Shown: positions 13,314 through 42,807 of the stretch, piece by piece
Layout: each line of letters starts with the position of its first letter
Position numbering within the stretch: position 1 is the first letter of the stretch
DNA from: a virus
Direction: 5' to 3' (one strand)
Virus record (IMG/VR): IMGVR_UViG_3300020580_000025
Location: 1-46,591 of that record
Length of the DNA stretch: 46,591 nucleotides
Translations under genes and position numbers: made by a program
Notes under the pieces: generated by a model
Seen by the model: the letters and a program-made list of their open reading frames with translations, nothing else
Told to the model about the DNA's origin: nothing
Database searches by the model: none

Positions 13314-13868
13314 ATGAACTTTGAAGCCCTCTTTCGCCACCATGCCGGCCGCCGTGTCGATAAGTGGTACCACTACTTTGAGATTTATGATCGCCATTTT
13401 AGCCGCTTTCGAGGCGAGCCGATTCGAGTGTTAGAAATCGGAGTAGATCACGGCGGGTCACTCCAGCTTTGGAAACAGTACTTTGGCGCGTATGCGCAAA
13501 TTGTAGGTCTCGATATCGACCCCCGCTGCAAACAGTACGAAGAGAACCAAATCGGAATAAAGATTGGTAACCAAGCGGATGTGGCGCTACTTAAATCCCT
13601 TGGCGGATTTGATATTGTGATCGACGACGGATCGCATCGACTCCAAGATCAGCTCGCTAGCTTCGAAGCGCTATGGCCCTCAACACGCGGCGTATACTTG
13701 ATTGAGGATTGTCATCAAGCGACTCCCCAACCCCCCGACGTGGTATTAGGGTATCACTACCCCTGGGTTGTCGTCGCTGAAAGACCGCAGCGGCTCATCA
13801 AAGGCGCCCCCTCGCGCGAATTGCGGCCGGATGAGATTGAGGCGACGGAGAAATACGGATGCCGATAG
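13314..13868 (+). CDS. Class I SAM-dependent methyltransferase
   Basis: The 184-residue Rossmann methyltransferase has SAM motif I VLEIGVDHGGSL (residues 39-50), acidic loop VGLDIDP (64-70) and FDIVIDDGSHRLQDQ (~104-118). The family resembles O-methyltransferases of natural-product and sugar pathways. The substrate is not visible. Because the phage also has a sugar cassette at 33-37 kb, a glycan substrate is possible, but this gene is in the early block. It is followed by a homing endonuclease gene that overlaps its last 10 bases. Confidence 0.8.
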   Translation: MNFEALFRHHAGRRVDKWYHYFEIYDRHFSRFRGEPIRVLEIGVDHGGSLQLWKQYFGAYAQIVGLDIDPRCKQYEENQIGIKIGNQADVALLKSLGGFDIVIDDGSHRLQDQLASFEALWPSTRGVYLIEDCHQATPQPPDVVLGYHYPWVVVAERPQRLIKGAPSRELRPDEIEATEKYGCR

Positions 13869-17040: not shown

Positions 17041-18873
17041 CTATGCCATGCGCCGAAACCAGTCGCAAACGATAACTGCCGGATTAGCTACGCTCGCTGC
17101 ACCGGGATCAACAAAAAAGCCTATGTTGTTTGGCGCTGTAGTGAATGCTGTTGTTAACGCTTCGGTCGCGTAATCTACAAAAGTACCGTCGTATCCCGTA
17201 TCCGAAATACGAAAAATAAGGTTACTGCCGTTGCGTTCTGCTTCCCACCAAACGGAACGCGTATTAGGGGAAACAGAAACGCTCCCCATGATAGCTGATG
17301 CTATCTGAGCGTATGTGATAGGGGTGTTTAAATGCGCCCCGTCATAGGTGTTAAAGGTTGTGAAATTTGTCCACCAACCAAACCAAAGGACTTGGGGGTT
17401 GTTTTGTAGGGGGCCGAAAACCGCTAGCTTTCCGGTTCCTGATTCGTATAATCCGATGCCCGCGATGCGTCCTGTATTGACAGTCATCATCATTTTGTAT
17501 CTGTAGCGCCAAGCGGTTCCTGCCGGAAGCGCTTGCCCTATAAACATTGCCTGGAAAGTAGGGCTTCCGGTTAAATCAGATTTAACTACCAGCGCTCCAT
17601 TACTGGTCGATACCGATGCTGCTCCCGTTTGGTTATATATAGTCCATGGCGACGCCCCTACGAATCGCGTTCCGCCGGTATCCAACGAGACTTCTTCAAA
17701 CTCATCGTTGGCAACAAAAGTTGGAACTCCGTTGCTATGCGTGTCGGGTGTTACGTTGAAAGGATTCGACCCCCCAACCCCGGCCCCTGCTACTCCCGGC
17801 GGCCCCATCATTCCTTCCTCCCCGTCATCCCCAAAAAATACAAACGGAGGCACAGGAAATGGAGTAGCAGGGATACCCATAATAGCCATGATTTCCACAG
17901 CCATTTCGCGCAGCGTTATCGTATCGCTAGCGTTGACGGTGCCTCCCCATTGTACGGACACTTGAAGCGTTTGAGATATAGTCGTGTTGACTGTAACCGG
18001 AGCCGCATTGTCCATGTTCACGAACAGCACAACGGTGGACGCTGTTGAAAATTCCGACAGCCCTTGCGCTTCTATCGTGCCGAGAGAACCAATTGTCTGG
18101 ACAGTGAACAATCCCTCGGCGGACCATCCATCGTTAGTAACGTTTGCAACAGTCGTCAACGTACCAGATGCTATCATTACCGTTGAGCCGAAATAGACTC
18201 GCAACGCCAACGAAGGGGCGACGACTCCGGTGCTATAGACGCCAAACAGTCTCAACCTGACAACCATACCTGCGGCAAGAGTACCGGCGGGGATGGCATA
18301 CGACGACGCGAAGAAAGTCTCTGCACTCGTATTAGCGACAGTGTTCCCGCCGGGGACGGAAGTATTCACATAGACAAGGGACGTACCCGTAGGCCCTGGA
18401 GGTCCCGCCGGGCCAGCGGCCCCCGCAACCCCCGCCACGCCGGCAGAGCCCGGCGGCCCTGAGTCGCCATCCACACCATCATCGGCGGCCATAAAGATCG
18501 CGGGGCCGAGCGGACCTTGCGCTCCTGTAGCGCCATTCATACCGGCGACCCCCGGCGGACCTGGGTCGCCGTCACCGCCTCCCCCAGCGTCATCAAACCA
18601 AGGAATCGGCGCGGTTAGTCGGATAGGCACGTTGCCAACCATCACCCCGCCGCCCGATAGTCCTGGGCCCGGCGTCAACGTCGCCTCGTTGCCCGTGCCA
18701 ATGTTGCCGCCGCCAGTATTAGGTGGCGGCGTTGCGGTGGCGATCAGCGCCGCGAGCTGCGCGAGCGTGACGGTGTTCGAGCCCAATTCCGCAATCGTCG
18801 TGCCAACCGCCGTCGTGCCCGGAATGAGCATTTTGCGGATGCCGCCAACGGAGGGGACTTGGGTTTTCTTCAC
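17041..18873 (-). CDS. Collagen-like tail fibre or appendage protein
   Basis: The 610-residue protein has three collagen-type Gly-X-Y runs: near residues 100-125 (DGDPGPPGVAGMNGATGAQG and on), 137-165 (GDSGPPGSAGVAGVAGAAGP and on) and around 350-370 (GDDGEEGMMGPPGVAG). They alternate with beta domains. The C-terminal ~220 residues, starting FEEVSLDTGG, look like a trimeric receptor-binding or lectin-like domain. Collagen stretches imply a trimeric stalk. It is the best candidate for the host-recognition fibre. The start is GTG overlapping the upstream stop (GTGA). Confidence 0.75.
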   Translation of the reverse strand: MKKTQVPSVGGIRKMLIPGTTAVGTTIAELGSNTVTLAQLAALIATATPPPNTGGGNIGTGNEATLTPGPGLSGGGVMVGNVPIRLTAPIPWFDDAGGGGDGDPGPPGVAGMNGATGAQGPLGPAIFMAADDGVDGDSGPPGSAGVAGVAGAAGPAGPPGPTGTSLVYVNTSVPGGNTVANTSAETFFASSYAIPAGTLAAGMVVRLRLFGVYSTGVVAPSLALRVYFGSTVMIASGTLTTVANVTNDGWSAEGLFTVQTIGSLGTIEAQGLSEFSTASTVVLFVNMDNAAPVTVNTTISQTLQVSVQWGGTVNASDTITLREMAVEIMAIMGIPATPFPVPPFVFFGDDGEEGMMGPPGVAGAGVGGSNPFNVTPDTHSNGVPTFVANDEFEEVSLDTGGTRFVGASPWTIYNQTGAASVSTSNGALVVKSDLTGSPTFQAMFIGQALPAGTAWRYRYKMMMTVNTGRIAGIGLYESGTGKLAVFGPLQNNPQVLWFGWWTNFTTFNTYDGAHLNTPITYAQIASAIMGSVSVSPNTRSVWWEAERNGSNLIFRISDTGYDGTFVDYATEALTTAFTTAPNNIGFFVDPGAASVANPAVIVCDWFRRMA

Positions 18874-24353: not shown

Positions 24354-24841
24354 CAGTGTTTCACCCGCGAAAAAATAACGGCATCAGAACCGTCTGCACA
24401 ATATCTCCAAAGCGGGGCCTCACGAGTATAACCTAAAATCCGGTACCATTTCTCAATGCAAGATCGGTCGGCTAGCCGCTTCATCGGAGCAATGCACTCT
24501 AGCCGGTGCGCTTGCTCGCTCGTGAACATGGCGTCCATCGCCTTCCGTGCGATCCGTGTCACGGGGAACCAGTGCTTTTCCCACACCGCTGGCGTCGTCA
24601 ACATGAAGTCTCGCCACACCCCTGGCCGCTGCGGAACGAAGCCGCCAATGGCAATCGGTTCGTCATCGGCTTTGATCACCCACTTAGGGCCGGCGGTCGT
24701 AAAGTTGCCCACCGCTGCACCATCGACGGTGTACGGCTCCCCCGTAAAGGACTCCAACTGCTCGCGCTCATCTTGCGGCAAGCTGATGCAGACCTTGATG
24801 AAGTCGAGCAGCAACGGATTGGTGTAAACCTGAATTGTCAT
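24353..24841 (-). CDS. GNAT-like protein, T7 gp13-type internal protein
   Basis: 162 residues from the ATG that overlaps the nozzle-gene stop (ATGA). The open frame extends 20 residues further upstream inside that gene. It contains WVIKADDEPIAIGGFV, LTTPAVWEKHWFPVTRIA, RLECIAPMKRLADRSCIEKW and DGSDAVIFSRV, the beta-alpha layout of acetyltransferase-fold proteins related to T7 gp13 internal protein A. In such phages the protein is structural, and enzymatic activity is unproven. Confidence 0.7.
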   Translation of the reverse strand: MTIQVYTNPLLLDFIKVCISLPQDEREQLESFTGEPYTVDGAAVGNFTTAGPKWVIKADDEPIAIGGFVPQRPGVWRDFMLTTPAVWEKHWFPVTRIARKAMDAMFTSEQAHRLECIAPMKRLADRSCIEKWYRILGYTREAPLWRYCADGSDAVIFSRVKH

Positions 24842-27800
24842 CCGGTCGCCCCCGCGCCGCGAACATCGACGACGTATAGATTTGCTGCTTGCCATGTCCA
24901 TTGCTGGCCCCCAGGGAACGTCAGAATCAGCGAGTAGCTAGGCGCGTTGATGGGGATCGGCAGCGGCATTCCGGGCACGGTATCGGCAATCGCCACTGTG
25001 TAGGGTGCCGTAACATTCGTTGAAGTGGGAAACCCCGCGTTATCGTTGAACGTTGTCTTATCAGCCTGCTCAAACCCAAGCTGAATGATGACATCGCCAT
25101 CGCCCACGATATCGACGCCGCCCAGCATCTTGTTGATGCCCAACTCGCCCATGTCGAGATACGGCCATTGCAGCACACCGTTAAATACGGTGTTGTTGCC
25201 GCCTGAATCATCCACCAGCGTATTGGCGTCGAACTGCCACACTAAGTTGCCGGCGGTGCGCAGATACAAAATTCCAGCGTTCAGCGTCCAATCCGTGATG
25301 GTGTCGGGGAAGAGGTAACGGCTCCAGGATTTTTGCCCCGCGCCGTTTAACGTCAAGACAAAGGCTTGCGAACCAAAGAACAGCCAGTATTGACCGCGAC
25401 CGGGGTAGTAAAGCGAGATCGGCGTGAGCGGCGTACCCGGCGGCCCGGTGAGAATAATCTCTGTCGTGCCACTCTTAGGAAACGGAAAATCAGTGGTCGC
25501 ATTCTGCCAATAGAATTGTGTATAGCCCGCCGAGGTGGATACCTGCGCGTTGACCCCCAACGCCGTGTATGGGTTGCCCGCGATATCCACCCCGCTCATT
25601 GATACCAGTGCAGCTTGAGGAATGTTGCCGGTGAAATACAGATACAGGTCCGTATTGTTGACGACCCCCGCGCCATTATTACCCGCAGCACCTGCTACCG
25701 GAATCACCCCAAAGTTGGCGGGGGTAATGGAACCCCCCGTGGTGATGCTGTTGAACCCTGATGCAGGCAGTCCTGCGATGATATATCCTCCACCGCCGTT
25801 GGGAAGCCCCGCATTTTGAAAATTGCCCAATCCGGTAGGGGTCGTCACGATGCCGCACGTCACTTTAAACGCGGTCGAATTGCTAACACCTTTGAGCTGC
25901 GCGATAACAAGTGGGTCCACGGGCTGTCCGGTATTGCCCACTTGCATGTTGGCGGTAGCGCCCACCGTGCCTAGGTTGCGCACCCCCACTTCGGTCAAAA
26001 ATAACAAGTCATTCGCAACGCTCTGCGCTGCGCGCGGATAGATCGACCCCACGGGCTGCGCGTCGAGCAACGCCATGTTGGCGGGATCGGGGTCAATCTG
26101 CCACATCTGATAGCCACCCGCGTTGAACGCCATCAGATTGGAGCGGTAAAGCGCGAGCATCGCTACCGGGTTGTCTCCGTAGTTATTGAGCCCTGTCGGC
26201 AGGTACCCCGCATTATTGGCGCTATGCCAATCGGTGGGGTCCACCGCCGCCGAGAAATCAACAAGGTCCTTATCCCCCGCAAATACGTGCGAAGCGCCTA
26301 GCGTGACCGCAATGGTGTTGGGGCATTTGGGGTCCGTGATTTGACGGCTGATGCACTGCCACGACATGTGGGTATTGATGACCGTGCCGTTGATATCGGT
26401 AAACGTGCTGGGATCGTTCACCGACAGCCCCACCGTCGTCGGGAACGTCGGTTGGATGGTACCTGACAGCATGAGAGGGATCGCTTCCCACGTAATGATC
26501 GAGGTACCAATTGCTTTCCACGTCACACCGCCATCGATCACGACACTGCCCTGAGTCGTTGGCCACACGGGCTGCGCAGTAGCCGAACTGCCCGCCGCAA
26601 CTTGCACCGCTTCGTATAGGAAGTTGCTCACCGTAGCAGGCTGCTCCAAGTTCCAGACTGCAAGATCCGCGTAGCCGGTGTTTCGTGAATTGGTTCCGCT
26701 GCCTGCGCCAATGGATACCCGGCAATGCGCGGCTTTAGGCGGCGCGTTTCCGGTTACAGAGGCCTGCCGATAGCCGCCCCCCTCTTGATGAGGTCCGACC
26801 GTTGCGCTCAAGAAAGTATCGGTGGCGTCATACCAATTCAGTTGAATCCATGCGTCGAGATCCGCGCCGTTATTATTGGGGTTCAAGTACACGGAAGCGG
26901 TCACCGACTGTCCCGGTACCACAATGCCGAAATTGGTCATCGTCGCGAAATCACCGCCCGGTGACGTATTGCCGGTCGGAAACGATAAACACCAGTTACC
27001 CTGGTACGCTCCGGTGTTTGAAAACGCCCACGGCGTCACCCCAGAGAACGTCCAATTGCCATCATTACCATTCTCGAAGTCGCCGTTTGGAATCGCGTTG
27101 ATAAACGCACCCTGCGTCGCCGTAGGCCGCACCACCGCCCCCGGTGCATAGAGCGTCCCCGGAGCCCAGGTGGTAACGTTCGTCGATGCGATCACCGGGA
27201 GCGAGAGCGCAGAAGTCGGCGCAACTCCTGCATTTGCCACAGTCGATGAATTCCCGTAGCGATCGGTAATGTTCTTACCTAACGGTGCGCTGGCGGAAGT
27301 CGTCGTGGCTTGGGTCGCCCCTGCATTCGTGGAGGACGCATTGAAATCACCAAACTCTTGGATGGTGGCGGCAGAAACGGTAGGCCATACAGGCTCGGTG
27401 CTGCCGGTATGGGCATCGGTGACGACTGTAGCGGGCGCTGCGGGAAGGGCGGTGTTAAAGTTAGCCGTCCAAAGTGCGCTTCGAGTTACGCGAAATTCAT
27501 CTACCATACCCGGCGTTGTGGCCCCGTTGAATCGAGAGTAGGAGCCCACTACGACATTCTTAACGCCCGCAGCACCGTAATTCGAGGGCATCCAGTCGTT
27601 TCGAGTGTTACCCGCAGCAACACCATCTACATATAGCTTCTGAATACCGGCATGGCTGATGAGCGCAACATGGTGCCACGTATTGACCGCGCCAGCGGAG
27701 GTAGTGGATATCGTTGCCCCCGTTCCAAACGCTGCTTGATCCGCTGCGCTGACGGTGAGCGTTCCCCCACTTATGCCGCACGATAGCACCAAATCAGAAG

Positions 27801-29046
27801 TCACCCCTCCGGTTAGCGATCCGCCGTAATCGCAAAAATTCATCGAACCGCCCGTTGTGGTCATCAACACCCAACAATCGATAGTCCATTCGGTTGTTGC
27901 GAATATATCTACCGGACTGCCTGTACTAAAAGGAACCCCCAACGCGTAACTGCCAAAAAGATTCACCCCTGTGGTAGCAAATGCTGCCGATCCAAACTTT
28001 GGATTAGAAGTAGAGAGGGAACCGTTATTGATTATTACCGGATTGGCATTAGGAGATGAATCGAGCGTAGTCGTTTGCCCGTTAGCGCCATCCATGTGCA
28101 ATAACAGAACGGGGGAGATACCCGACTGTGATCCTTGATCGGAGGCTACAGAAACGGCTTCGTAGGCAAATCCTGTGTACTGCGTCGGCTCTATTATGGT
28201 GCCTGCCGAGATGACAGAGTTCGCGGACCACGGGGGGTTCGGCGGAAAGTCGCGTACCGCTTGATACGCCAAGCCGTTGACGGGGGAAGGCAACTCGATG
28301 TTGCCCGTTTTATAAACCGTGTTGCTTGTCCACGTTCCGTTGCTCTGTAACCAGTAGTGAAAAATATTATTGTCCGAGAACTGCGCCACAACGTAAAGAA
28401 AACCCATAAAAGGTTTCGCGAACCAAATCGTCGTCGGGGTGGCGGTCGTCGTCACCGGATTAGTCAATACATTGAGCGTGTAACCCGAAGGCACCGCAAT
28501 GCCGGTGCCGTTGACAATTGGCGGCGTACCCCCCGTGTTCGCCGCGCCAATATCCAGAAAGCTCGTGCTACCCGTCGTGTAATAGACATTTTCCCCCGCT
28601 GCCGCCGTACCTCGATAGATTCTATATGTCAGCGCCCCTGGCACCGCACCCCACACAATCAGATTGGATGACGTGGTTCCGGTCGTCAGCACTGATCGTT
28701 CATTCGATGCTGTCGTCTCCCCCAAAGCATTAAGCGCCGTTACCTCATAATAGTACGTCGCCGTTGTCAGCGTGCCGCCGGTGGAGGTAGTGAGGATGGC
28801 ACTCTGTACCGGCGCTTGTAGCACGGTAGAGACAGCAAATACATTAAACTTCCCGTTGAGCGCTGCAAGCCCCACTGTCGAACTGTTGAGCGTTGCGGAG
28901 CGGATCGTCCCTTCGCGGGGAACGATCGACCCTGCATTTGTTATATAGCCGTTCTGCAAGTCATAGAGCATGTTGGCGGCGGCGCCGCCTTTGACTCTCA
29001 ACCGATTGATGCCGCCTTGGAGGACGGTGATCGGATAGGGCCTCAT
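24838..29046 (-). CDS. Tail nozzle (tubular protein B-like) with LamG insert
   Basis: The 1402-residue protein begins MRPYPITVLQGGINRLRVKG, typical of T7 gp12/P22 gp10-type nozzle proteins. The beta-propeller part resumes late: ASHVFAGDKDLVDFSAAVDP, NLMAFNAGGYQMWQIDPDPA and YPRAAQSVANDLLFLTEVG. Between them lie adhesion-like modules: two fibronectin-like segments (e.g. YYYEVTALNALGET) and a LamG/concanavalin domain at roughly residues 310-545 (LLLHMDGANGQTTTLDSS; NTWHHVALISHAGIQKLYVD). A carbohydrate-binding-like jelly roll follows (DFENGNDGNWTFSG). It probably forms the tail tip and binds cell-surface glycans. Confidence 0.8.
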   Translation of the reverse strand: MRPYPITVLQGGINRLRVKGGAAANMLYDLQNGYITNAGSIVPREGTIRSATLNSSTVGLAALNGKFNVFAVSTVLQAPVQSAILTTSTGGTLTTATYYYEVTALNALGETTASNERSVLTTGTTSSNLIVWGAVPGALTYRIYRGTAAAGENVYYTTGSTSFLDIGAANTGGTPPIVNGTGIAVPSGYTLNVLTNPVTTTATPTTIWFAKPFMGFLYVVAQFSDNNIFHYWLQSNGTWTSNTVYKTGNIELPSPVNGLAYQAVRDFPPNPPWSANSVISAGTIIEPTQYTGFAYEAVSVASDQGSQSGISPVLLLHMDGANGQTTTLDSSPNANPVIINNGSLSTSNPKFGSAAFATTGVNLFGSYALGVPFSTGSPVDIFATTEWTIDCWVLMTTTGGSMNFCDYGGSLTGGVTSDLVLSCGISGGTLTVSAADQAAFGTGATISTTSAGAVNTWHHVALISHAGIQKLYVDGVAAGNTRNDWMPSNYGAAGVKNVVVGSYSRFNGATTPGMVDEFRVTRSALWTANFNTALPAAPATVVTDAHTGSTEPVWPTVSAATIQEFGDFNASSTNAGATQATTTSASAPLGKNITDRYGNSSTVANAGVAPTSALSLPVIASTNVTTWAPGTLYAPGAVVRPTATQGAFINAIPNGDFENGNDGNWTFSGVTPWAFSNTGAYQGNWCLSFPTGNTSPGGDFATMTNFGIVVPGQSVTASVYLNPNNNGADLDAWIQLNWYDATDTFLSATVGPHQEGGGYRQASVTGNAPPKAAHCRVSIGAGSGTNSRNTGYADLAVWNLEQPATVSNFLYEAVQVAAGSSATAQPVWPTTQGSVVIDGGVTWKAIGTSIITWEAIPLMLSGTIQPTFPTTVGLSVNDPSTFTDINGTVINTHMSWQCISRQITDPKCPNTIAVTLGASHVFAGDKDLVDFSAAVDPTDWHSANNAGYLPTGLNNYGDNPVAMLALYRSNLMAFNAGGYQMWQIDPDPANMALLDAQPVGSIYPRAAQSVANDLLFLTEVGVRNLGTVGATANMQVGNTGQPVDPLVIAQLKGVSNSTAFKVTCGIVTTPTGLGNFQNAGLPNGGGGYIIAGLPASGFNSITTGGSITPANFGVIPVAGAAGNNGAGVVNNTDLYLYFTGNIPQAALVSMSGVDIAGNPYTALGVNAQVSTSAGYTQFYWQNATTDFPFPKSGTTEIILTGPPGTPLTPISLYYPGRGQYWLFFGSQAFVLTLNGAGQKSWSRYLFPDTITDWTLNAGILYLRTAGNLVWQFDANTLVDDSGGNNTVFNGVLQWPYLDMGELGINKMLGGVDIVGDGDVIIQLGFEQADKTTFNDNAGFPTSTNVTAPYTVAIADTVPGMPLPIPINAPSYSLILTFPGGQQWTWQAANLYVVDVRGAGATG

Positions 29047-30793: not shown

Positions 30794-31453
30794 TTAGTTT
30801 TGGATCAGAATCAACGTCGAGGTGGACCCGCTGGCGACGATCCAGTCATTAGACAACTGCACCAGCTTCGGAGCGCCGAATGCAATCGTCGCAATAACCG
30901 AGAACGCCGCCGGCCCTAAGACCGTACCGTAGGCCGCCGTGGTCACCGTGGAGGACTTATCCGGGGCGCCCATGAGGGTGATCGCAGCGAAGCTCGCCGT
31001 ACCCAGCAATTGTGCATTGCCACCATTCATCGCCAGCACCGTGGCCCCCGATTCAAACGGAACGACCGGGCCATCCGCTTGCTGCGAGAGCGTGTGCAAA
31101 GTAATGAGGGATGCGGTACCCGCTTGAAGTCCCGTGGTAAAGGCGTTGAGCGGCGTGCCATTGGCGACCGTCGAGACGGAGAACGTCTGTCCGGAGATTG
31201 AGGTCGTGTAGTAAATCTGGTTCGCACTCACCGTCAAACTGGTGAGCGTACCCAGGACCGCGCCGCCGCCTACCGAGAGCGACACCAAGCTATTTTGCGC
31301 TGGGTTGAACCCCGGTACCGTGATGACGCTCGGCGTCGCCGCCGTCATCGTCACATCGGACCAAGGCTCACCGAAGGGAAGCGGCGAGATGTTGAAGGGA
31401 AGATAGATCGGCGCCGTACCAGCCGCCGTACCCGTATTGATGAGAACTTGCAT
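30794..31453 (-). CDS. Head decoration-like protein (219 aa)
   Basis: The start is the ATG preceded by AAAGGAAACGCACAA; the longer open frame upstream overlaps the capsid gene. The sequence is beta-rich and low in charge (LINTGTAAGTAPIYLPFNIS, GQTFSVSTVANGTPLNAFTT, FAAITLMGAPDKSSTVTTAA). It lies directly downstream of the capsid gene. A capsid decoration or cement role is likely by position, but no named family is recognised. Confidence 0.65.
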   Translation of the reverse strand: MQVLINTGTAAGTAPIYLPFNISPLPFGEPWSDVTMTAATPSVITVPGFNPAQNSLVSLSVGGGAVLGTLTSLTVSANQIYYTTSISGQTFSVSTVANGTPLNAFTTGLQAGTASLITLHTLSQQADGPVVPFESGATVLAMNGGNAQLLGTASFAAITLMGAPDKSSTVTTAAYGTVLGPAAFSVIATIAFGAPKLVQLSNDWIVASGSTSTLILIQN

Positions 31454-31473
31454 TTGTGCGTTTCCTTTGAGGG

Positions 31474-32544
31474 TTAGGCGATGGAAAGAACAGCGTGCGC
31501 GTTGCGCTTGCCAGTGGTCAGGGCTGCTTTCGCCGTCAGCGCGAAATAGTGAACGTAGCGATCGTACACGCGCGGGGGCGTGCGATTGATCATCCAATGC
31601 CCCTGAATGGGCCGTAGCTTCAAGAACTTCGTGTTCAGGAAGTAGCAACGCTTCTCCCAAGGGATCGTCGGTGCATAAAGGCCATCAAGCACCGTCATTA
31701 CCGGGTCCCAGAGAATTTCCACATTCTTGAAGTACATGCCGGTGCGGATGCCTTCGCCTACCGAGGCGTCAAGTTTCGTCGGCTTCGCGTCGTCCTTCAT
31801 GTACACCGTACGGTTGATGGTGTTCTTCGCATCGAGGCGGTAGGCGTCCAGGAAGAGTTCCCCAACCAAGATGTAGTTGGGCGCCATGCCGCCGTATCGG
31901 GTGCAATCGCGCCAGCCGATTTCCATCTGCTGGGTCAAGTTGCCGGCGGTCGCCGTCGAGATGCCGGTGATCGCCGTATTCTGCCACCATGTATAAATCG
32001 ATTGGTCGAGGCCGCCCACCACTTGGGAGACGGTCGGCGTGGTGGAGACCAGAAGGTCCAGGCCGGGAATGTTGGTGGCTGACTGCGTGCCATCCAAATG
32101 CAGCATGTAGTCGAAGTTCTCTTGGAAACCCAGCTTCAACGTCTCGCTGTTTTCCTGCAAGAGGTTCGTGAGCTGAACTTTTTCCGCTTCGCTCGGGACG
32201 CTGGACTTATCATCCGTCATCACGATTCCGTTCTGCGTCAGTTCATCTTCGTTGAGCCCAAACCCATCGTGGAAGCTGCCCCACGTATATTTCGCTTGCT
32301 GCAAGGTGCGCTTGCGATTGTAGGTAACCTGTTGATCACCAAAATAGGATTGGAAGTTTGAATCGTTGCTGTAACGCAGTTGCTCAACCACGTACTGCAA
32401 ACCGCCGACATACGGCTTTTTCTCTTCCATCAGCTTTTTGATCAGCGGACGGGCGATGTTGACGTTATCGATCGGATCGTTGCGAAGAAAGTAATTGATC
32501 GCCGCGTTGCCGGCATATGCGAGTTGTTCGGTTGTGAAAGCCAT
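31474..32544 (-). CDS. Major capsid protein
   Basis: 356 residues from the ATG in GGAGCAAATGCTATATG. It contains MAFTTEQLAYAGNAAINYFL, YVVEQLRYSNDSNFQSYFGD, AKYTWGSFHDGFGLNEDELT and a C-terminal RPIQGHWMINRTPPRVYDRY. It has the length and layout of a podophage major capsid protein (probably HK97 fold), and it lies after portal and scaffold and before head-completion and tail genes. A candidate own promoter lies 130 bases upstream, where the endonuclease VII gene interrupts the operon. Confidence 0.85.
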   Translation of the reverse strand: MAFTTEQLAYAGNAAINYFLRNDPIDNVNIARPLIKKLMEEKKPYVGGLQYVVEQLRYSNDSNFQSYFGDQQVTYNRKRTLQQAKYTWGSFHDGFGLNEDELTQNGIVMTDDKSSVPSEAEKVQLTNLLQENSETLKLGFQENFDYMLHLDGTQSATNIPGLDLLVSTTPTVSQVVGGLDQSIYTWWQNTAITGISTATAGNLTQQMEIGWRDCTRYGGMAPNYILVGELFLDAYRLDAKNTINRTVYMKDDAKPTKLDASVGEGIRTGMYFKNVEILWDPVMTVLDGLYAPTIPWEKRCYFLNTKFLKLRPIQGHWMINRTPPRVYDRYVHYFALTAKAALTTGKRNAHAVLSIA

Positions 32545-32674
32545 ATAGCATTTGCTCCAAGTATGACAAAGGTTAGAAACCATGTCTTCTTGGGCCGGCG
32601 AACCCTGTACGCCCGTGTCGAATGACCACGCCAGTTGACGATGCTGGGATTCAGTCAGAAGGCAGACGAAAGCA

Positions 32675-32745: not shown

Positions 32746-33219
32746 ATGGAGTATCAAGAAGCTAAGCGCCTAGGGCTAAAGAAATACAATACCGGCCGCG
32801 CATGTAAAAAAGGTCATATTGTTGACCGCTATACAAGCACTCGTACCTGCACTCGCTGCCAGTATGAAACTTTAAGCAAATGGGTTGACCTGAATCCAGA
32901 TAAGCACAGAGCTCAAGGACGCAATTGGAAACGTCGTAATCTAGAACGCTATCATACAGAGCCGGAAAGATCCAAGATGAGGGAGCGTTGGCGCGCTAAT
33001 CGCGGATTTCCTACCCCCACACGTCCGACACCTACTAATTGCGAATGTTGTGAACGAAAGCTGGAAGGTGGACGAAAGACTCACCTAGACCATTGTCATG
33101 AGACTGGCGGATTTCGCGGTTGGTTATGCGGTAGCTGTAACCTTGGAATAGGGTCCCTTGGCGATACAATAGAAGGATTACAGCGCGCTATCGAGTACCT
33201 TAGGCGCGCCGAGTCCTAG
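32746..33219 (+). CDS. Endonuclease VII-like (HNH superfamily) mobile endonuclease
   Basis: The 157-residue protein has a zinc module at residues 20-38 (CKKGHIVDRY...CTRC). A recombination endonuclease VII domain follows: cysteines at 99-102 and 128/131 flank THLDHCHETGGFRGWLCGSC. Such genes are usually either junction-resolving enzymes or homing-type free-standing endonucleases. This one is the only rightward gene inside the leftward late operon, between the sugar methyltransferase and the capsid gene, and has no clear ribosome site. That points to a selfish insertion. Its stop shares CTAG with the opposing gene. Confidence 0.85.
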   Translation: MEYQEAKRLGLKKYNTGRACKKGHIVDRYTSTRTCTRCQYETLSKWVDLNPDKHRAQGRNWKRRNLERYHTEPERSKMRERWRANRGFPTPTRPTPTNCECCERKLEGGRKTHLDHCHETGGFRGWLCGSCNLGIGSLGDTIEGLQRAIEYLRRAES

Positions 33220-34418
33220 ATCAAAGTCAGTTCGGGTACCGCGACGACCAACTTGCCGCCCCAATGTTTGACCTGGGGTGCGAGCTTGCGAACAATCTCA
33301 TCCCGCCAGTTCCACGGTAAAATCAGCGTGTACGGCGGTCGCTGCATCAGCAAGACTTCTTCTGAGACCACGGGTATGCGGCTGCCGGGTAGAAACTTTC
33401 CCTGCTTTGCGGAGGTGACATCACCCACCATCCGAATGGAATCCGACGTAGCTCCACAGTAGTTCAAAAAAGTGTTGCCCTTCGCCGCTGCACCATAGGC
33501 ATACACTTGTGCATGGTCATGGAGGAAACGATTGAACTTCTCTTTGACATGCTTCGCGCGAAACGCAAACGCTTTATAGTTGTCGAGTCGCGTTAGCCAC
33601 GACTCTTCCGCGTGCAACGTGAACACCGCCTTGCTAGCGGGACGGGGTTGCTTCGAGACATACAACCGCAAACTACCGCCATGTGTCGGCAATCGTTCCA
33701 CATCATAGACGTGCAGCTTGCACCGATTAAGCAGCGGCTCTAACGCAGTGAGCGACAGATACGAATAGTGCTCGTGATAAATCGTATCGAACTGGTTGCT
33801 GTCCAATAGCTCCACCACATGGGGGAACTCAATCGTTGCAGTACCCGTAGGCTTAAGCAGCCGTGCAATCGCTTTGACCGCCCCTGCCAAATCAGGAATG
33901 TGCGCCAACACATTATTGGCGATGACCAAATCCGCGTAGTTGTCAGCGGTCGTCATCTCCGTCAAGTGTTCGATCATCGTTGGCACGCCGCGTGCAATGG
34001 CAACAGCGGCCACCGTCGAGGACGGGTCAATACCTAGGACATGGCAGCGGCCTTTTAAATTTTCCAACAAACTGCCATCGTTGCTGCCAATCTCAATCAC
34101 GTTCGAGGTCGGCCCTAATTCCAGGCGCTTGTAAATCATGTCGCAGTAGCGGCGCGTATGATCGAGCCATTGTTTGGACCCCGACGAGAAATACACGTAA
34201 TCGTCAAAAATATCCCGCGCCGATACGTCATAGTCGAGCTGCATCAAGAAACAGGTTCCGCATACAACCGCACGCAAGGGGTAGTATTTCTCTGGTGCCT
34301 CTTGCGTTCGTAAGAACGCATTCGACGGAGGCTGCGATCCTAGATCCAGCATCTCGTGCAAATGACCGCTGTAGCACGCGCGACAGAACGTACGCCGGTC
34401 GGTATGCGGTGCCTTCAC
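33216..34418 (-). CDS. Sugar C-methyltransferase (TylC3/NovU-like)
   Basis: The 400-residue protein has the full three-part plan. The N-terminal zinc domain uses C12/C15 and C53/C56 (FCRAC, VVCGTC). The SAM domain has VIEIGSNDGSLL (107-118) and NNVLAHIPDL, with the YHEHYSYLSL active-site block. The C-terminal nucleotide-sugar domain has YAYGAAAKGNTFLNY. The family methylates C-3 or C-5 of deoxy-keto nucleotide sugars. In a phage head operon it suggests a methylated sugar placed on the virion or host surface. The start is coupled to the gene upstream (ATGA). Confidence 0.88.
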   Translation of the reverse strand: MKAPHTDRRTFCRACYSGHLHEMLDLGSQPPSNAFLRTQEAPEKYYPLRAVVCGTCFLMQLDYDVSARDIFDDYVYFSSGSKQWLDHTRRYCDMIYKRLELGPTSNVIEIGSNDGSLLENLKGRCHVLGIDPSSTVAAVAIARGVPTMIEHLTEMTTADNYADLVIANNVLAHIPDLAGAVKAIARLLKPTGTATIEFPHVVELLDSNQFDTIYHEHYSYLSLTALEPLLNRCKLHVYDVERLPTHGGSLRLYVSKQPRPASKAVFTLHAEESWLTRLDNYKAFAFRAKHVKEKFNRFLHDHAQVYAYGAAAKGNTFLNYCGATSDSIRMVGDVTSAKQGKFLPGSRIPVVSEEVLLMQRPPYTLILPWNWRDEIVRKLAPQVKHWGGKLVVAVPELTLI

Positions 34419-34855
34419 TCCCCGCCGCTCCTGGGAGTTGGCGTCTTACCTTTGGGTTTCCCCTTCTCCGCTTCACTGCCGGCATGTTTTGTGAGCGCTT
34501 TGTCGATCGCAGACTTCATACCGTCCTTTTGATCCTCTTCGCTCGCACCTTCGATGCCCTCTTTGCCGATCTCCATCTTGTGAAGATGCAGCGTCATACT
34601 CCGACGCGGACCACCATTAATACCTGGATCTTGGTCCTCGCTCGTCGCGCCGACATGCGCCAAGCCGCTGATCTTGATCTTAGAGCCGACCGGCGGCATC
34701 TTGTCCATACCCAGTTTCGCCAAATGGTGGTGTTCAAGGTACAACCGTGGTGGCGATTGATGTTCCGCGCTACTCGACGGACTGTTAGCTCCCACTAGTG
34801 AGCCTTTAGCTTTGCCCTTCTCAGTGGATATTTTCTTCGGTGTAAAATCAGCCAT
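34415..34855 (-). CDS. Capsid staple-like protein
   Basis: 146 residues from the second ATG (AGGAAATGGTT before it gives correct spacing). The core PPRLYLEHHHLAKLGMDKMP, then PVGSKIKISGLAHVGATSED, matches the conserved (Y/I)L-x-LxKLGx-x2-(M/L)PxVG beta-barrel of proteins called capsid staples in podophages. Termini are low complexity (GKAKGS; EKGKPKGKTPTP). It probably clamps capsid subunits. It lies inside the sugar cassette, an unexpected position for a head protein. Confidence 0.65.
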   Translation of the reverse strand: MADFTPKKISTEKGKAKGSLVGANSPSSSAEHQSPPRLYLEHHHLAKLGMDKMPPVGSKIKISGLAHVGATSEDQDPGINGGPRRSMTLHLHKMEIGKEGIEGASEEDQKDGMKSAIDKALTKHAGSEAEKGKPKGKTPTPRSGGE

Positions 34856-34864
34856 AACCATTTC

Positions 34865-35572
34865 CTATGAGCTGTAAGCGCTCGGTTCCGTCTCCACGTC
34901 GTGCTTATCCCCTAATACTACCGTGCCGTGCCAAGTCTTGCCCAACGGCTTCAAACACAAAAGACCCCCCTCATCGAGGTCTAACGCTACCCGATCGTCC
35001 GTAAGCCATTGGCTGATTTCTCGAATGTTGCTACCTGACGTGACCAGCAGCACGGGCCCTGGCCGTTTTTCATCTAATAACGCCTTGAACCAACCCATAA
35101 AACGCTTACAGAACTGATTCAGCGATTCGCCTTCGTCGGGTATTTCGTTCGGGTGCTCCATGTAGTATTTGACAATCGGCTTGTTTGGGTACTTTTTGCT
35201 ACCTAACATCTTTTTACCCAAATTCCAAGTGCGCGCCTCGTCGGTGACTTCGATATCCACCGGCTCTGCATCCCCCGACTGGATAATCTCGGCTGTCTCC
35301 ATCGTACGCTTCAAAGACGGCGCATAGATGCATGCCAACGGTTTCGGGAGGTCCTTGAGATACTGCTGGGCGGCGATGATCCCCATACGCCCTTCATCTG
35401 TCAGGGGGAAATCGAGCCAACCATCCGATCGCTTGAGCGCGTCTAACGCTGTCCGCCCATGACGCATGATGTAAACCGGCTCCTGACTATTGCCAAGCGC
35501 TTTGCTCATGGCCGCCTTCGCGCCTTTGACGCGATCGGCTTCTACCCCGGAGGCATATCCTGTTCTTGCCAT
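34865..35572 (-). CDS. Histidine-phosphatase superfamily protein
   Basis: 235 residues from MARTGYASG. The phosphoglycerate-mutase-like core begins VYIMRHGRTALDA (nucleophile His38), with WLDFPLTDEGR and YAPSLKRTMETAEI (Arg89). The second catalytic histidine is usually in a V-x-H-G motif. Here the matching segment reads LLVTSGSNIREI, Ser in place of His. The enzyme may therefore be weak, altered or non-catalytic. In sugar cassettes this superfamily removes phosphate from sugar-phosphate intermediates. The N-terminal 30 residues are extra. Confidence 0.8.
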   Translation of the reverse strand: MARTGYASGVEADRVKGAKAAMSKALGNSQEPVYIMRHGRTALDALKRSDGWLDFPLTDEGRMGIIAAQQYLKDLPKPLACIYAPSLKRTMETAEIIQSGDAEPVDIEVTDEARTWNLGKKMLGSKKYPNKPIVKYYMEHPNEIPDEGESLNQFCKRFMGWFKALLDEKRPGPVLLVTSGSNIREISQWLTDDRVALDLDEGGLLCLKPLGKTWHGTVVLGDKHDVETEPSAYSS

Positions 35573-35574
35573 TG

Positions 35575-36432
35575 CTAGTAGCCGGTCATGGTCATGCGCT
35601 TCTTTAACACATCTGCTTCCACAAGTCGATTCTGCGCAGTGAGGATGCGATTGGCTACTTCGTAGCGTGACCACATGAATTGACGAATCATTTCATTGAG
35701 GTTTTTCTTCAATTCTGAATCAGTCAGGTTATTTTGGAAGATATCATGTGCTAGTACCTCAAGACCCGTTCGATAGGCGTCGAAATCCGTCAAGCACTGC
35801 TGATCCCCCAGCTTGACCCGGCCGCCGACCGGATGCGAGGTGATGTTGCGATAGTAAGGGGTTTTGGCAAAATGCACCGGACCCCGCAGCACGGCATTGG
35901 CGAGGTCCACGAAGCACCAGTAGGCGGGGGTGCGCGGCTGCATAATCTCTTCCAACCGCTCGCGCCGGTAGATCGCATGTTCTGGCCAGACATGCTTGTG
36001 CATGACGAAATTCCACAGCAAATCCGCTCGCGTGAACGTCTCATCATCCGCCGGATAGAATGCATCCCACGCCGGTTTCTGCTCGACTTCATCATAGAGC
36101 TGACAGGGCGCAAAATACGCCAATACTTTAGGGTTCGCCTCTAAAAAGTCGATGCCCTTCTGCACTTCGCCCGGTAGCAAGTAGTCATCGTCCGCCAAAA
36201 ACACGCAATAGGGGGTGCTCGACGCCAGCAATGCCGCGCGCATATTGGGAAACGGCCCCAACCGTGGGGACTGACGGATATAGCGCGCGTTGGGGTAGCT
36301 ACCGATCTCGCTCCGTCCGTCATCGGAAATAATGAGTTTCGTATTCGGAAAATCGGCCGCTGTTTTCTCCAGCGTCCACATCAAAAACGGATCGCGTTCG
36401 TAGGTTGGAATACAAATGCTAAGGTTCTGCAT
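35575..36432 (-). CDS. Family 2-type glycosyltransferase
   Basis: The 285-residue protein has the GT-A fold signatures: LSICIPTYERDPF at the N-terminus, TKLIISDDG for the nucleotide site, and YCVFLADDDYLLPGEV with the metal-binding DDD (about residues 80-83). The second half (WCFVDLANAVLRG, KTPYYRNITSHPVGG) should bind the acceptor. It transfers a sugar from a nucleotide donor. Substrates are unknown. It overlaps the next glycosyltransferase gene by 14 bases. Confidence 0.88.
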   Translation of the reverse strand: MQNLSICIPTYERDPFLMWTLEKTAADFPNTKLIISDDGRSEIGSYPNARYIRQSPRLGPFPNMRAALLASSTPYCVFLADDDYLLPGEVQKGIDFLEANPKVLAYFAPCQLYDEVEQKPAWDAFYPADDETFTRADLLWNFVMHKHVWPEHAIYRRERLEEIMQPRTPAYWCFVDLANAVLRGPVHFAKTPYYRNITSHPVGGRVKLGDQQCLTDFDAYRTGLEVLAHDIFQNNLTDSELKKNLNEMIRQFMWSRYEVANRILTAQNRLVEADVLKKRMTMTGY

Positions 36433-37120
36433 GCGCCGCTCCGTTGGTCAGCGCGGCCGGCGGCGGTGCAGGGACTTGGGTTTCCATCTGCGGCGTAATC
36501 TGGGGGTCCAGTGTGCGCCCATCATGCGACAACCGGACGCCGCAGTTGATCCACGGCTGAATCCCTGCGCTCCACACCAAATCCGAGAACGAATAGTCCT
36601 CTGAGAGCAAATTGTCCATTGCGATCCGACCAAAGAAGAAGTGGTGGAAAGTTCCTTTGCCGTAGGACGCCACCATTTTCTTATCAATCAGCGTTTGAAA
36701 CACGCTCCGCTCGATTTTCAAAAACCCGCCAGGGACAAACCGCGCTTTGAGTAGCCCTTGCTTCGGGATATTCTCCAGCGGTACTGTGGCCCCTTCGTTG
36801 TCGCGGCAAAACGGCATCGGTGGTTGGCACTTATCCGTATACAACCCGCTGACAAAGGGTTCTTCCGTATCGATCAGATTTTTCAAATCGTCTCGTGTGA
36901 AGCCCATATCGCTATCGATACAAACCATCGTGTCATATTCCGTACGCCGTAAGAATTCGTTGGCGAGGACATTCCGCGCGACATAGATATCCGACTGGCC
37001 CGCCATCGGTAGCCATCCGCCGTGAAGGCCGTTCGACTGCAACAGTCCGGCGGTGTAGAGCGTGATCGTTTGGTTACCCCGGATCGGTGTTGCAATTAAA
37101 ACTTTATTGTAGTTTCTCAT
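36419..37120 (-). CDS. Phage glycosyltransferase, ANP1/MNN9-like
   Basis: The 233-residue protein has KVLIATPIRGNQTITLYTAG, NVLANEFLRRTEYDTMVCID, then SDMGF (the acidic metal site), VSGLYTDK and FVPGGFLKIERSVF. This is the pattern of a phage glycosyltransferase group related to the ANP1/MNN9 GT-A fold. The C-terminal 25 residues are proline/alanine-rich. The start overlaps the scaffold stop (ATGA), so it is expressed with the head genes. Confidence 0.8.
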   Translation of the reverse strand: MRNYNKVLIATPIRGNQTITLYTAGLLQSNGLHGGWLPMAGQSDIYVARNVLANEFLRRTEYDTMVCIDSDMGFTRDDLKNLIDTEEPFVSGLYTDKCQPPMPFCRDNEGATVPLENIPKQGLLKARFVPGGFLKIERSVFQTLIDKKMVASYGKGTFHHFFFGRIAMDNLLSEDYSFSDLVWSAGIQPWINCGVRLSHDGRTLDPQITPQMETQVPAPPPAALTNGAAHAEP

Positions 37121-38172
37121 TTGCCCATCCCCGCGAGCGCGCCGCTGACGGCTTCCAACATCGAACTGGGCGCCTTCGTCTGCCCCCCGGCGGGCTGCTT
37201 GCCCGCACGAAGTGGTTGGTTCACGGGTACCTTTTTTACCGTAGGCGCCGCGCTGACTTTGATTGCTTTATAGGCTTCCATGAATTTCGCTTTCCATTGT
37301 GAAGGGGGAATCGAGGCCAGTACCGGCTTTAGCGCCGGAACCAAAATCGCCTTCTTCGCCGGATACTGCGGATCGCTACTGAGTAGCGTTTGCTCCAGCG
37401 CGGATAAGTCCGCGCGAGCAGTCGCCAACTCTTGAGCCGCTGCTTGCTGGCGCTGAGTCTCCTGGCTGGCATTGGTTGTCAGCTCCGTACGAAACTGCTG
37501 GCCGTTACGCGTGCGCGCAATCTCTTTGGCGTACTCCGGTGCGAGTTTGCCGGTACGCACCGCTTCCACCAAATCGGCATGCGCCTTCAACGGATCGCCT
37601 ACGGTGCGTTCTTTGCCGAGCAACGTCGCCAATCGTTCCGCAACACTCTCCACCAACTCCAGCGCCTTCGTCTGCTGCGCCGGATCGTTGCTGTTGAACA
37701 ACGCCAGCCAGCTCAACGTCTCGCCGTACTGCTCCGGGGTCGCACCCGTCGCCTGGATGCCGTTGACCATGAAGTCAAAGTTCTGTTTGATCTCGTCCCG
37801 TTCGGCCGTCACCGTTTTCGTGGTATCGATCAGCGTGCGGATACGGTCTTGCGTATCTTTTTTCAGTTCCTTCGGAATCGGATCGTTGAGTGGATCCGCT
37901 TTCTTAGGCTCGACCTTTGCAGGCTTCTCTCCTTCGACCGGCGGCTTTTCTTCACCCTTTTTGATGAACTTGCCGGTGGCCGGATCGCGTTCGGCGCCGC
38001 GTGCTTCGGCTTCCTCGTCAGTCTCTTCGGCTTCCGGGGTGCCCTCTTCGGGTGTTTCGCTTTCTGGGGTGTCACCCTCCGGCGTCTCAACAATTTCCTC
38101 ATCCGGCGGATCGGCCGTAATCGCCTCGCCAAGAGCGGCGTCCACTTCTTCCATCAAGGTACTTTCAGGCAT
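37117..38172 (-). CDS. Scaffold protein
   Basis: The 351-residue protein has a strong ribosome site (AGGAAGCCCCC). The N-terminal 90 residues are highly acidic with P/E/T repeats (ETPEGDTPESETPEEGTPEA), then a basic patch and a long helical body (RIRTLIDTTKTVTAERDEIK; AQELATARADLSALEQTLLS). Acidic N-terminus, coiled-coil core and basic C-terminal region (VKKVPVNQPLRAGKQ), placed right after the portal gene, are typical of phage scaffold proteins. There is no protease motif. Confidence 0.8.
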   Translation of the reverse strand: MPESTLMEEVDAALGEAITADPPDEEIVETPEGDTPESETPEEGTPEAEETDEEAEARGAERDPATGKFIKKGEEKPPVEGEKPAKVEPKKADPLNDPIPKELKKDTQDRIRTLIDTTKTVTAERDEIKQNFDFMVNGIQATGATPEQYGETLSWLALFNSNDPAQQTKALELVESVAERLATLLGKERTVGDPLKAHADLVEAVRTGKLAPEYAKEIARTRNGQQFRTELTTNASQETQRQQAAAQELATARADLSALEQTLLSSDPQYPAKKAILVPALKPVLASIPPSQWKAKFMEAYKAIKVSAAPTVKKVPVNQPLRAGKQPAGGQTKAPSSMLEAVSGALAGMGK

Positions 38173-41122: not shown

Positions 41123-41761
41123 CTAAAAATAGCGTACCTTGGGCTTCTCGTTGCGATCATTGTAGGTGAGCCACGCCTCCGTGAACGGCACGAGTATAGG
41201 TCGGGAGGTCACCGAAGGCAAACGGGCGTCCATCATCTTATCCACCATGCGCCCTATCAGGCCGCAGACATCGGCTTTGTCATCCCATCGCCCGCCGGGA
41301 AATTTGACCAACTGCTCGATGCAATTATCCGCCCACGCGCGGCGAATGGGGAAATGCACCGTGCCGGCGGTCGCCCTTGCGTGAAACGCTTGTAGCTTTA
41401 CCGCCTTGTCATCGAGCGAGGGTAGCATCTCGACGGCGACGAACTTTTGAGAGTGCTGCATGGCGCTGCGAATCGCGGGGCCGATCGCTTTGTCAATCAA
41501 CCCCCCTTCATTCGCCCATCGGACGGGTTTCCACAACCCCACCAGTTTGATGAACGCAGCAATTGCTACATCCGTCTCGCACTGTTTACTCCACCAATCG
41601 ATTGCCCACAAATCCCCGATCTTATCGACACCCCAAACGCCATGTTCCGAAAAGTCAGGTTCCTTCTTCCCGTGGCGCGGCTCCATCACGGCGTAATCCG
41701 ACGCTCCATAGATGCGCAAACTTTTTGGCAGGGCATCCAACCCCTCATAGGTGCGAATCAC
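41123..41761 (-). CDS. Terminase large subunit, nuclease part (separate gene)
   Basis: The 212-residue protein is the RNase H-like nuclease of a large terminase. It has YGASDYAVMEPRHGKKEPDF with the first Asp, WGVDKIGDLWAIDWWSKQ, RWANEGGLIDKAIGPAIRSA, and the last acidic motif WDDKADVCGLIGRMVD. It begins with GTG overlapping the ATPase stop (GTGA), so the two domains are translated as separate, coupled chains. Together they total about 561 residues, a usual full-length terminase. It would cut concatemeric DNA at packaging. Confidence 0.85.
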   Translation of the reverse strand: MIRTYEGLDALPKSLRIYGASDYAVMEPRHGKKEPDFSEHGVWGVDKIGDLWAIDWWSKQCETDVAIAAFIKLVGLWKPVRWANEGGLIDKAIGPAIRSAMQHSQKFVAVEMLPSLDDKAVKLQAFHARATAGTVHFPIRRAWADNCIEQLVKFPGGRWDDKADVCGLIGRMVDKMMDARLPSVTSRPILVPFTEAWLTYNDRNEKPKVRYF

Positions 41762-42807
41762 AAATCAACCCTCGTCAAGTCCGGGTCGTACATTTTGAAC
41801 ATGTCGCGGTTAAAGTGGACACCAGTAAAGGGCGCGGGCCTCTGCTGAAAGAGCGCGGCCCAGGTTCGCGCCGCACGCGGATTGTCCCTCCAAACCGACC
41901 AATGCTCACGCGGCCAGAACTCGGGCCATAGAAACTCCCCTGGCTTGCGGCCGAGTACGTCATCCTCGCGCTCGCACTCGGCAGGAATGCAAAGCACATC
42001 CCACACCTGGCCATCACGGCAATGGATGAGGCCGCTTTCTCCTTCGTAGTTCTCCGGCAAGATTGACCCCACCAAATCTTCTTCGTGCCATCGGGTCATA
42101 ATTAAAATCACGCTCATCCACGGTTTGGCGCGCGTCATCGCCGTGTCGATGTACTCCGCGTAAATCTTCTCGCGGATGGTAGGTGAGTCCGCTTGCTCGC
42201 GGTTAGCGACCGGGTCATCCAGAATCAGCAAGTCGCAACGGTTGCCGGTGATTCCCGCGAGCATCCCGGCCGCCATCATGGAGGACCCGTTTGTGAGCGA
42301 CCAGTCATCGATTGCCCGTTGATCCTCCGCTAAGGTCGGTCGGCCTTCCCACAACGCCGAGTAGCGGGGGCTACGTACCACCGAACGCACCTTGCGGCTT
42401 TGCTTGGCGGCGATCCCCGTGGCGTAGCTGCCGATGATCACTTGAGTGTTGGGCTTGCGCCCCATGGCCCAGGAACCCCCCACGACCGGCGCGTAGGTAG
42501 ACTTCGCACATCCAGGGGGGCCTAAAATAATTTGCCGCCCGCGTGGCGTCTCGATACAGGTTTGAATCTTCTGCATCATCAGGACGTGGTGCAACGCCAG
42601 TCGCGTCTCTACCGGCTGGTAGAGAACCGGCTTGTCCTCGAAGCGATTGATCAGCTTGCCCGTTGCAGGATCTTCTTCGTCCGCTACGTCAAGCAGCGGC
42701 ACGCCGGGGATGTCAATCGATTGGCTGTACTCCAGAAGGCTGGCGCGAGCACGCTTGCGACGGAGGTACTCTTGTGCCGCCCATTCCGGCGAGACGGCTT
42801 GGTTCAC
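41758..42807 (-). CDS. Terminase large subunit, ATPase part (separate gene)
   Basis: The 349-residue packaging ATPase has Walker A ILGPPGCAKSTYAPV, adenine/Q-motif context near YQPVETRLALHHVLMM, Walker B CDLLILDDPVANREQ, and coupling motif ILIMTRWHEEDLVG. It ends shortly after AALFQQRPAPFTGVHFN, the usual start of the linker to the nuclease, with DLTRVDL and a stop. The nuclease domain continues in the next gene. It pumps DNA through the portal. The start is coupled to the small terminase gene (ATGA). Confidence 0.9.
   Translation of the reverse strand: MNQAVSPEWAAQEYLRRKRARASLLEYSQSIDIPGVPLLDVADEEDPATGKLINRFEDKPVLYQPVETRLALHHVLMMQKIQTCIETPRGRQIILGPPGCAKSTYAPVVGGSWAMGRKPNTQVIIGSYATGIAAKQSRKVRSVVRSPRYSALWEGRPTLAEDQRAIDDWSLTNGSSMMAAGMLAGITGNRCDLLILDDPVANREQADSPTIREKIYAEYIDTAMTRAKPWMSVILIMTRWHEEDLVGSILPENYEGESGLIHCRDGQVWDVLCIPAECEREDDVLGRKPGEFLWPEFWPREHWSVWRDNPRAARTWAALFQQRPAPFTGVHFNRDMFKMYDPDLTRVDL

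Follow-up and report, generated by a model that had tools for sequence, protein, structure and literature searches.

Sugar enzymes and proteins with a putative capsid-targeting helix lie between the scaffold and capsid genes of an uncultured phage

Which functions are encoded between the scaffold and major capsid protein genes of an uncultured tailed phage? The locus lies on an IMG/VR virus contig (IMGVR_UViG_3300020580_000025) of 46,591 bases, referred to below as the window, the right half of which is a late operon on the minus strand: terminase, portal, scaffold, a cassette, capsid, and further virion genes. An earlier note, made from the sequence alone, had placed two glycosyltransferases, a histidine-phosphatase-like protein, and a sugar C-methyltransferase in this slot; all four genes are real, lie tightly packed on the minus strand, and are conserved in relatives. 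It missed a short helical tag on head-operon proteins and an unlinked sugar O-methyltransferase. We lean slightly towards a joint reading, in which cytoplasmic enzymes would glycosylate a virion protein and the slot would be a cargo site that also holds tagged capsid accessory proteins. The genes concerned are as follows:

37117-38172, minus strand: scaffold, 351 residues, called by position and by the alignment of relatives
36419-37120, minus strand: GT-A-fold glycosyltransferase, 233 residues, phrog_1574 (unknown function), 4-nucleotide overlap with the scaffold gene
35575-36432, minus strand: GT2-family glycosyltransferase, 285 residues, PF00535 2.7e-12, 14-nucleotide overlap with 36419-37120
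34865-35572, minus strand: histidine-phosphatase-like protein, likely degenerate, with an N-terminal tag, 235 residues, PF00300 5.4e-23
34415-34861, minus strand: small head-operon protein, 148 residues, phrog_825-like (5e-5), beta hairpin and tag helix, passed over by the earlier note
33216-34418, minus strand: three-domain sugar C-methyltransferase, 400 residues, PF08421, PF13489 and PF08484, 4-nucleotide overlap with 34415-34861
31474-32583, minus strand: major capsid protein, NF033394, 3.5e-83

A Pfam search of the 36419-37120 protein gave no match. Residues D69/D71 (DxD), S173-E174-D175, and H199-D200-G201 (HDG) were invariant across its 23 homologues, and the best Foldseek match of its AlphaFold model (predicted local distance difference test score of 82) was A197 of Sulfolobus turreted icosahedral virus (STIV) (2c0n, 2.8e-6), followed by LH3, COLGALT1, GalNAc-Ts, Mnn9, and mimivirus R699. 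By its modelled fold and DxD metal site, the protein is a GT-A glycosyltransferase, and enzymes that modify proteins figure prominently among the structures it resembles. The 35575-36432 protein matched PF00535 past the cut-off, with the conserved D and DDD (D81-D82-D83) of the GT2 family, and more than 100 further residues were nearly invariant across 29 homologues; a match to TIGR04440 (3.7e-14) lay under that model's cut-off. No match to the GT2 protein was found in the annotated phages searched. Both glycosyltransferases encoded by the phage thus have intact catalytic motifs, as virion glycosylation calls for, and no membrane segments were found in either of them or in the sugar methyltransferase. 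Phage base glycosylation is known from T4 and Shewanella phage Thanatos (PMC12838424), so that phage DNA might be the acceptor; we consider this very improbable, since the GT-A fold is closest to protein glycosyltransferases, the genes have a late head-operon location, and no base-hypermodification gene was found among the genes scanned (some small open reading frames (ORFs) lay outside the scan).

Conservation of the slot was analyzed in relatives. A capsid-protein scan of viral contigs yielded 62 related loci, 64-100% identical across the matched part; 59 of them, including the window, run from scaffold to capsid, and two (L126 and L127) are second views of L014 and L053, leaving 57 distinct contigs, some of them mutually close (e.g., L003/L005 and L006/L007). 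GT-A was encoded in the slot of 35/57 distinct contigs, GT2 in 27/57, and the 34415-34861 family in at least 33/57; endonuclease-VII-type (12), phosphatase-like (7), and C-methyltransferase (3) genes were rarer. It is the two glycosyltransferases that make up the conserved core of the cassette, and, with homologues in this slot in dozens of contigs, the arrangement goes far beyond chance. Four distant relatives without these glycosyltransferases (L046, L047, L050, and L031) carry different sugar-type genes in it, which encode a phrog_1962 glycosyltransferase and MptE-like/sialyltransferase-like proteins, and in L062 a second GT2 gene was added. Elsewhere in the operon, 35 ORFs chosen to represent its remaining variable slots included a single sugar dehydratase and a single GT2; the counts for the cassette slot and the other slots were obtained by different procedures, and the comparison indicates a tendency only. 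Among distant relatives, L047, with an MptE-like gene in the scaffold-capsid slot, encodes a sugar 4,6-dehydratase-type protein (L047:3464-4252, PF02719, 5e-64) between terminase and portal. A recent import of the cassette was rejected, its guanine-plus-cytosine content being that of its surroundings.

A further sugar enzyme is encoded far from the head operon:

13314-13868, plus strand: MycE/TylE-like sugar O-methyltransferase, unlinked, PDB 3ssm 7e-17, demethylmacrocin O-methyltransferase 8ia9 1.6e-15

We take PDB 3ssm to be MycE (the search table names only "methyltransferase"). The IDDGSH and IED motifs are retained, and the best solved relatives act on macrolide sugars. In the gene content of near-complete genomes, this gene tracks the glycosyltransferases: among records reaching that region, it was present in 9/10 GT2-positive and 0/6 GT2-negative genomes (one-sided Fisher p = 0.0009), a co-occurrence inflated by shared ancestry, and genome G008 carries GT2 without it.

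The 33216-34418 protein matches D-mycarose 3-C-methyltransferase (4rv9, 5e-65) and TcaB9 (2e-58) over its full length, and its three domains and YHEH motif are those of nucleoside diphosphate (NDP)-sugar C-methyltransferases of the TylC3/TcaB9 kind. Judged from the gene sequences, it is a rare add-on of single origin, found in 3 contigs, i.e., in the window phage and one related lineage only. Two independent acquisitions are unsupported, as the copies in the window and L006 are sisters (Shimodaira-Hasegawa-like approximate likelihood ratio test 99; quick tree with long branches). The gene lies on different sides of the 34415-34861-family gene in the window and in L006. The earlier note's proposal of a C-methylated sugar on the virion is thus favoured as regards virion glycosylation, by the gene place, the lack of membrane segments, and the O-methyltransferase, while C-methylation narrows to the window phage and one lineage. 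Its suggestion of altered antigenicity finds no support: nothing about the phage, which is uncultured, hints at an immune system.

Might the glycosyltransferases and methyltransferase act instead on a host surface glycan, for superinfection exclusion or serotype conversion? C-methylated deoxysugars occur in the surface glycans of bacteria, the C-methyltransferase has very widespread cellular relatives, and phage glycosyltransferases are well known for serotype conversion. However, serotype-converting gtr cassettes have a membrane-anchored GtrB and a GtrA flippase; neither glycosyltransferase has a membrane segment, and no flippase-like gene was found in the slot or adjoining it. Two further points speak against a host-surface target, which we regard as unlikely: the position of the genes between those for scaffold and capsid is conserved, and they belong to a late head operon of an apparently lytic-type genome. 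Of the targets considered, the virion fits best, ahead of the host surface and of DNA. Virion glycosylation is favoured by the conserved head-operon place, the soluble enzymes, the tracking O-methyltransferase, the unrelated sugar-type genes in the slot of distant relatives, the intact motifs and folds, and the nearest fold, A197, from a virus with a glycosylated capsid protein.

A candidate acceptor was found next to the capsid gene:

30794-31459, minus strand: Ser/Thr-rich protein, candidate acceptor, directly past the capsid gene

Its Ser+Thr fraction was 0.236 in GT2-positive and 0.199 in GT2-negative loci in a raw comparison uncorrected for relatedness; that of the capsid protein was unchanged. 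A collagen-like tail fibre, considered as acceptor on account of the COLGALT/LH3 fold match, was rejected, as Gly-X-Y repeats occur equally in glycosyltransferase-positive and -negative genomes. The tail-fibre-like protein with collagen Gly-X-Y repeats (17041-18873) is encoded in nearly all relatives examined. Another virion protein, of 1402 residues (24838-29046), has a laminin-G-type lectin domain.

The phosphatase-like gene most likely starts at the ATG at 35572, two bases past the GT2 stop, and not at the GTG at 35674. The RHG nucleophile motif of histidine phosphatase branch 1 is retained in the protein. Its second catalytic His is lost: VTHG of the solved phosphatase 1ebb is replaced by VTSG, with Ser in 6/6 aligned homologues, down to 47% identity, and because of this replacement we do not class it as an active phosphatase. 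Matches in "Listeria phage" records were put aside as likely host contigs. The nucleotide-sugar tailoring proposed in the earlier note therefore stands for the glycosyltransferases and the C-methyltransferase, which are genuine sugar-type enzymes with intact motifs, and fails for the phosphatase-like protein, which has lost the His and carries a capsid-type tag. That all four genes form one nucleotide-sugar pathway seems improbable to us. The phosphatase-like gene sits between sugar genes and occurs only in GT-A-positive loci (7/7), a weak association with 35/57 contigs being GT-A-positive; a non-sugar gene separates it from the methyltransferase gene, and the His is lost in all homologues. 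Its tag, moreover, is absent from the sugar enzymes. From its sequence, the protein is probably a degenerate capsid cargo and no sugar enzyme.

The tags and the related scaffold ends of the window are located as follows:

35489-35527, minus strand: tag helix of the phosphatase-like protein, KGAKAAMSKALGN, matrix score 23.3
34487-34525, minus strand: tag helix of 34415-34861, DGMKSAIDKALTK, near the protein end
38131-38151, minus strand: scaffold N-terminal core EEVDAAL, from the alignment of relatives
37135-37155, minus strand: scaffold C-terminal core EAVSGAL, from the alignment of relatives

The tag comprises 13 residues (consensus xGxKxAMDxALxx) close to the terminus in proteins of the 34415-34861 family and holds 5 of the 8 nearly invariant columns of a 40-member alignment of that family; residues 108-126, covering it, are helical in the model of 34415-34861. 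A fold search of that protein gave no significant match, and the tag was absent from the phrog_825-like protein of phage zth2-2. A matrix trained on 10 tags of this family only was scored over 4,738 other ORFs. Remaining family members ranked first and unrelated proteins next: the phosphatase-like proteins of the window (23.3), L016 (22.4), and L043 (C-terminus, 18.7); Cys-rich proteins of L035 (22.2) and L015 (21.0); the L051 portal N-terminus (20.6); proteins of 67-87 residues in L008, L013, L014, and L059 (18.8-24.3); and three capsid-protein N-termini (16.9-17.9). Among 14,214 shuffled ORFs, the top score was 16.2, and no ORF outside the head genes scored above 15. The tag stood at opposite ends in two pairs of homologues, and tag copies of one genome were encoded by different codons.

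The homologous Cys-rich proteins L015:3862-4485 and L035:9189-9851, with the tag at opposite ends, have no family match. A family of 67-88 residues (L008:8743, L013:9594, L014:9082, L016:9163, L018:8351, L027:9044, and L059:4234) consists of a conserved N-terminal strand VMVPEGHTVQVHPPG, the tag, and a Lys-rich tail, and occupies the place where the 34415-34861 family is missing.

Of 57 distinct scaffolds, 51 had a core motif within their first 28 residues and 47 within their last 24; no core match was found in the glycosyltransferases and the C-methyltransferase. A relation of the tag to the scaffold ends is likely from these motifs. As in T4-kind targeting, a short terminal element occurs on unrelated head-operon proteins; the N-terminal propeptide position of that kind was not found, the tag being mostly C-terminal and sometimes N-terminal. 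The tag helix resembles a capsid-targeting label in sequence. Could the likeness be due to chance, or to a common low-complexity helix with no targeting role? The segment is short and alanine-rich, a few capsid-protein N-termini score 17-18, and portals have a similar pattern fixed at an internal site. Against this, unrelated slot proteins reach 19-24, compared with 16.2 for shuffles and at most 15 for non-head ORFs, and the tag is the most conserved part of the 34415-34861 family, placed at opposite ends and written in different codons. We hold chance to be rather unlikely. The capsid-label reading is favoured by the tag statistics, the opposite-end placement, and the different codons, and the cargo reading of the phosphatase-like protein by the lost catalytic His.

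In the joint reading, the scaffold-capsid slot would be a cargo site holding two independent kinds of genes, and the late operon would supply the sugar enzymes and the tagged proteins at the same time as coat and scaffold. The soluble GT-A and GT2 enzymes would move sugars from host nucleotide-sugars onto a co-produced virion protein in the cytoplasm, and the sugar would be methylated by the unlinked O-methyltransferase and, in the window lineage, by the C-methyltransferase, with a host NDP-4-keto-6-deoxysugar as its substrate. The coat protein may gather 34415-34861 and the phosphatase-like protein into the procapsid via the helix, as with the scaffold. Besides the shared ancestry and the raw Ser/Thr comparison mentioned above, several points weigh against this reading: the glycan and its virion location are predictions from the genes, the nucleotide-sugar supply has to be the host's, the phosphatase-like homologues of L011 and L003 score under the shuffle maximum, the scaffold core pattern was composed after inspecting scaffolds and also occurs at an internal portal site, and the scaffold ends are recovered only moderately by the tag matrix. 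More tentatively, and with some doubt, we propose for this uncultured clade a movable scaffold-like targeting helix that, at either end of diverse proteins (degenerate phosphatase, Cys-rich, and small Lys-rich), would load the head from the same slot as separate particle-glycosylating enzymes.

Neighbouring genes include the following:

32746-33219, plus strand: endonuclease-VII-type HNH gene, PF02945 2e-18, between the methyltransferase and capsid genes, a mobile neighbour
upstream flank of the scaffold-cassette stretch: portal, phrog_12082 match

The slot does not hold sugar genes alone, because the phrog_825-like gene (34415-34861) and the endonuclease-VII-type gene (32746-33219) also lie inside it. 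In relatives, endonuclease-VII-type HNH genes were found at several slot sites and beside terminase, on either strand, like mobile genes. The large terminase (41123-42807) is encoded by two ORFs, ATPase and nuclease, divided at the linker; the same split was present in 33 near loci, with a 4-nucleotide overlap in many loci and as much as 356 nucleotides between the ORFs in others. Terminase is a single ORF in 9 distant loci and the named relatives, and a literature search for split terminases returned no report. ORFs at both contig ends (1-398 and 46178-46591) are common to the same three relatives, and ORF 15-398 corresponds to no more than the final part of phrog_7964; the contig ends probably divide a single gene, which would make the genome near-complete and permuted. 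Rfam and tRNA searches of the window gave no matches, and a promoter/terminator scan of it gave no signal clearly over chance.

A DNA-level search of phage records with the window found no near match. Named phages related through their capsid protein, at 24-27% identity, are Rhizobium phage RHph_N65, Microcystis phage Mae-Yong1326-1, and Myxococcus phages Mx8/Mx9; in the nearest of these, Mae-Yong1326-1 and RHph_N65 (read across the record start), the scaffold adjoins the capsid gene with no cargo. Both virion glycosylation and the use of capsid-targeting sequences have been described before; the combination of sugar enzymes and tag, and a movable scaffold-like label, appear to be new. To our knowledge, phage virion glycosylation is documented in few systems. 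Head-operon sugar enzymes with their own sugar methyltransferases form a set whose acceptor is testable by co-expression. Should the tag prove functional, it would offer a rule for recognizing the capsid cargo of uncultured phages, as well as a compact signal with which to load proteins into phage shells.

Mycobacteriophages Che8 and Rita have virion/capsid glycans according to Freeman et al. 2023 (cited by way of PMC11256854 and PMC12691614), and their phage-encoded glycosyltransferases are thought to act on virion proteins, as we propose for the window phage. These phages are unrelated to it; in Maravista, a Che8 relative, the glycosylation genes lie near the genome 3' end (PMC11256854), whereas those of the window lie inside the head operon, are accompanied by macrolide-sugar-type C- and O-methyltransferases, and point to a putative glycan. 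The major capsid protein of STIV is glycosylated (PMC10551542), and A197, a minimal GT-A domain, is the nearest solved fold to 36419-37120; STIV is, however, an archaeal virus, the identity is about 14%, and the acceptor is putative in both. Like the TylC3-type/TcaB9 sugar 3-C-methyltransferases, 33216-34418 has the full-length match, three domains, and YHEH, but it is phage-borne without other deoxysugar genes, and its substrate and carbon position are putative. The 13314-13868 protein shares the IDDGSH and IED motifs with the MycE/TylE macrolide-sugar O-methyltransferases, but consists of the C-terminal catalytic domain alone (184 residues), with a putative substrate. T-even internal proteins have only a targeting sequence in common (PMC3012670, PMC5694885); like it, the window tag is a short terminal element on otherwise unrelated proteins encoded by head genes, but it stands at either end, has a scaffold-like core, and its head entry and cleavage are putative. 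SaPI1 CpmB and the 80alpha scaffold bind coat via the same terminal helix (PMC5644958), so that, as may be the case in the window, a second protein has the scaffold's terminal helix; there, sharing between phage and satellite sets capsid size, whereas in the window several proteins of one phage carry a helix of other sequence with putative binding.

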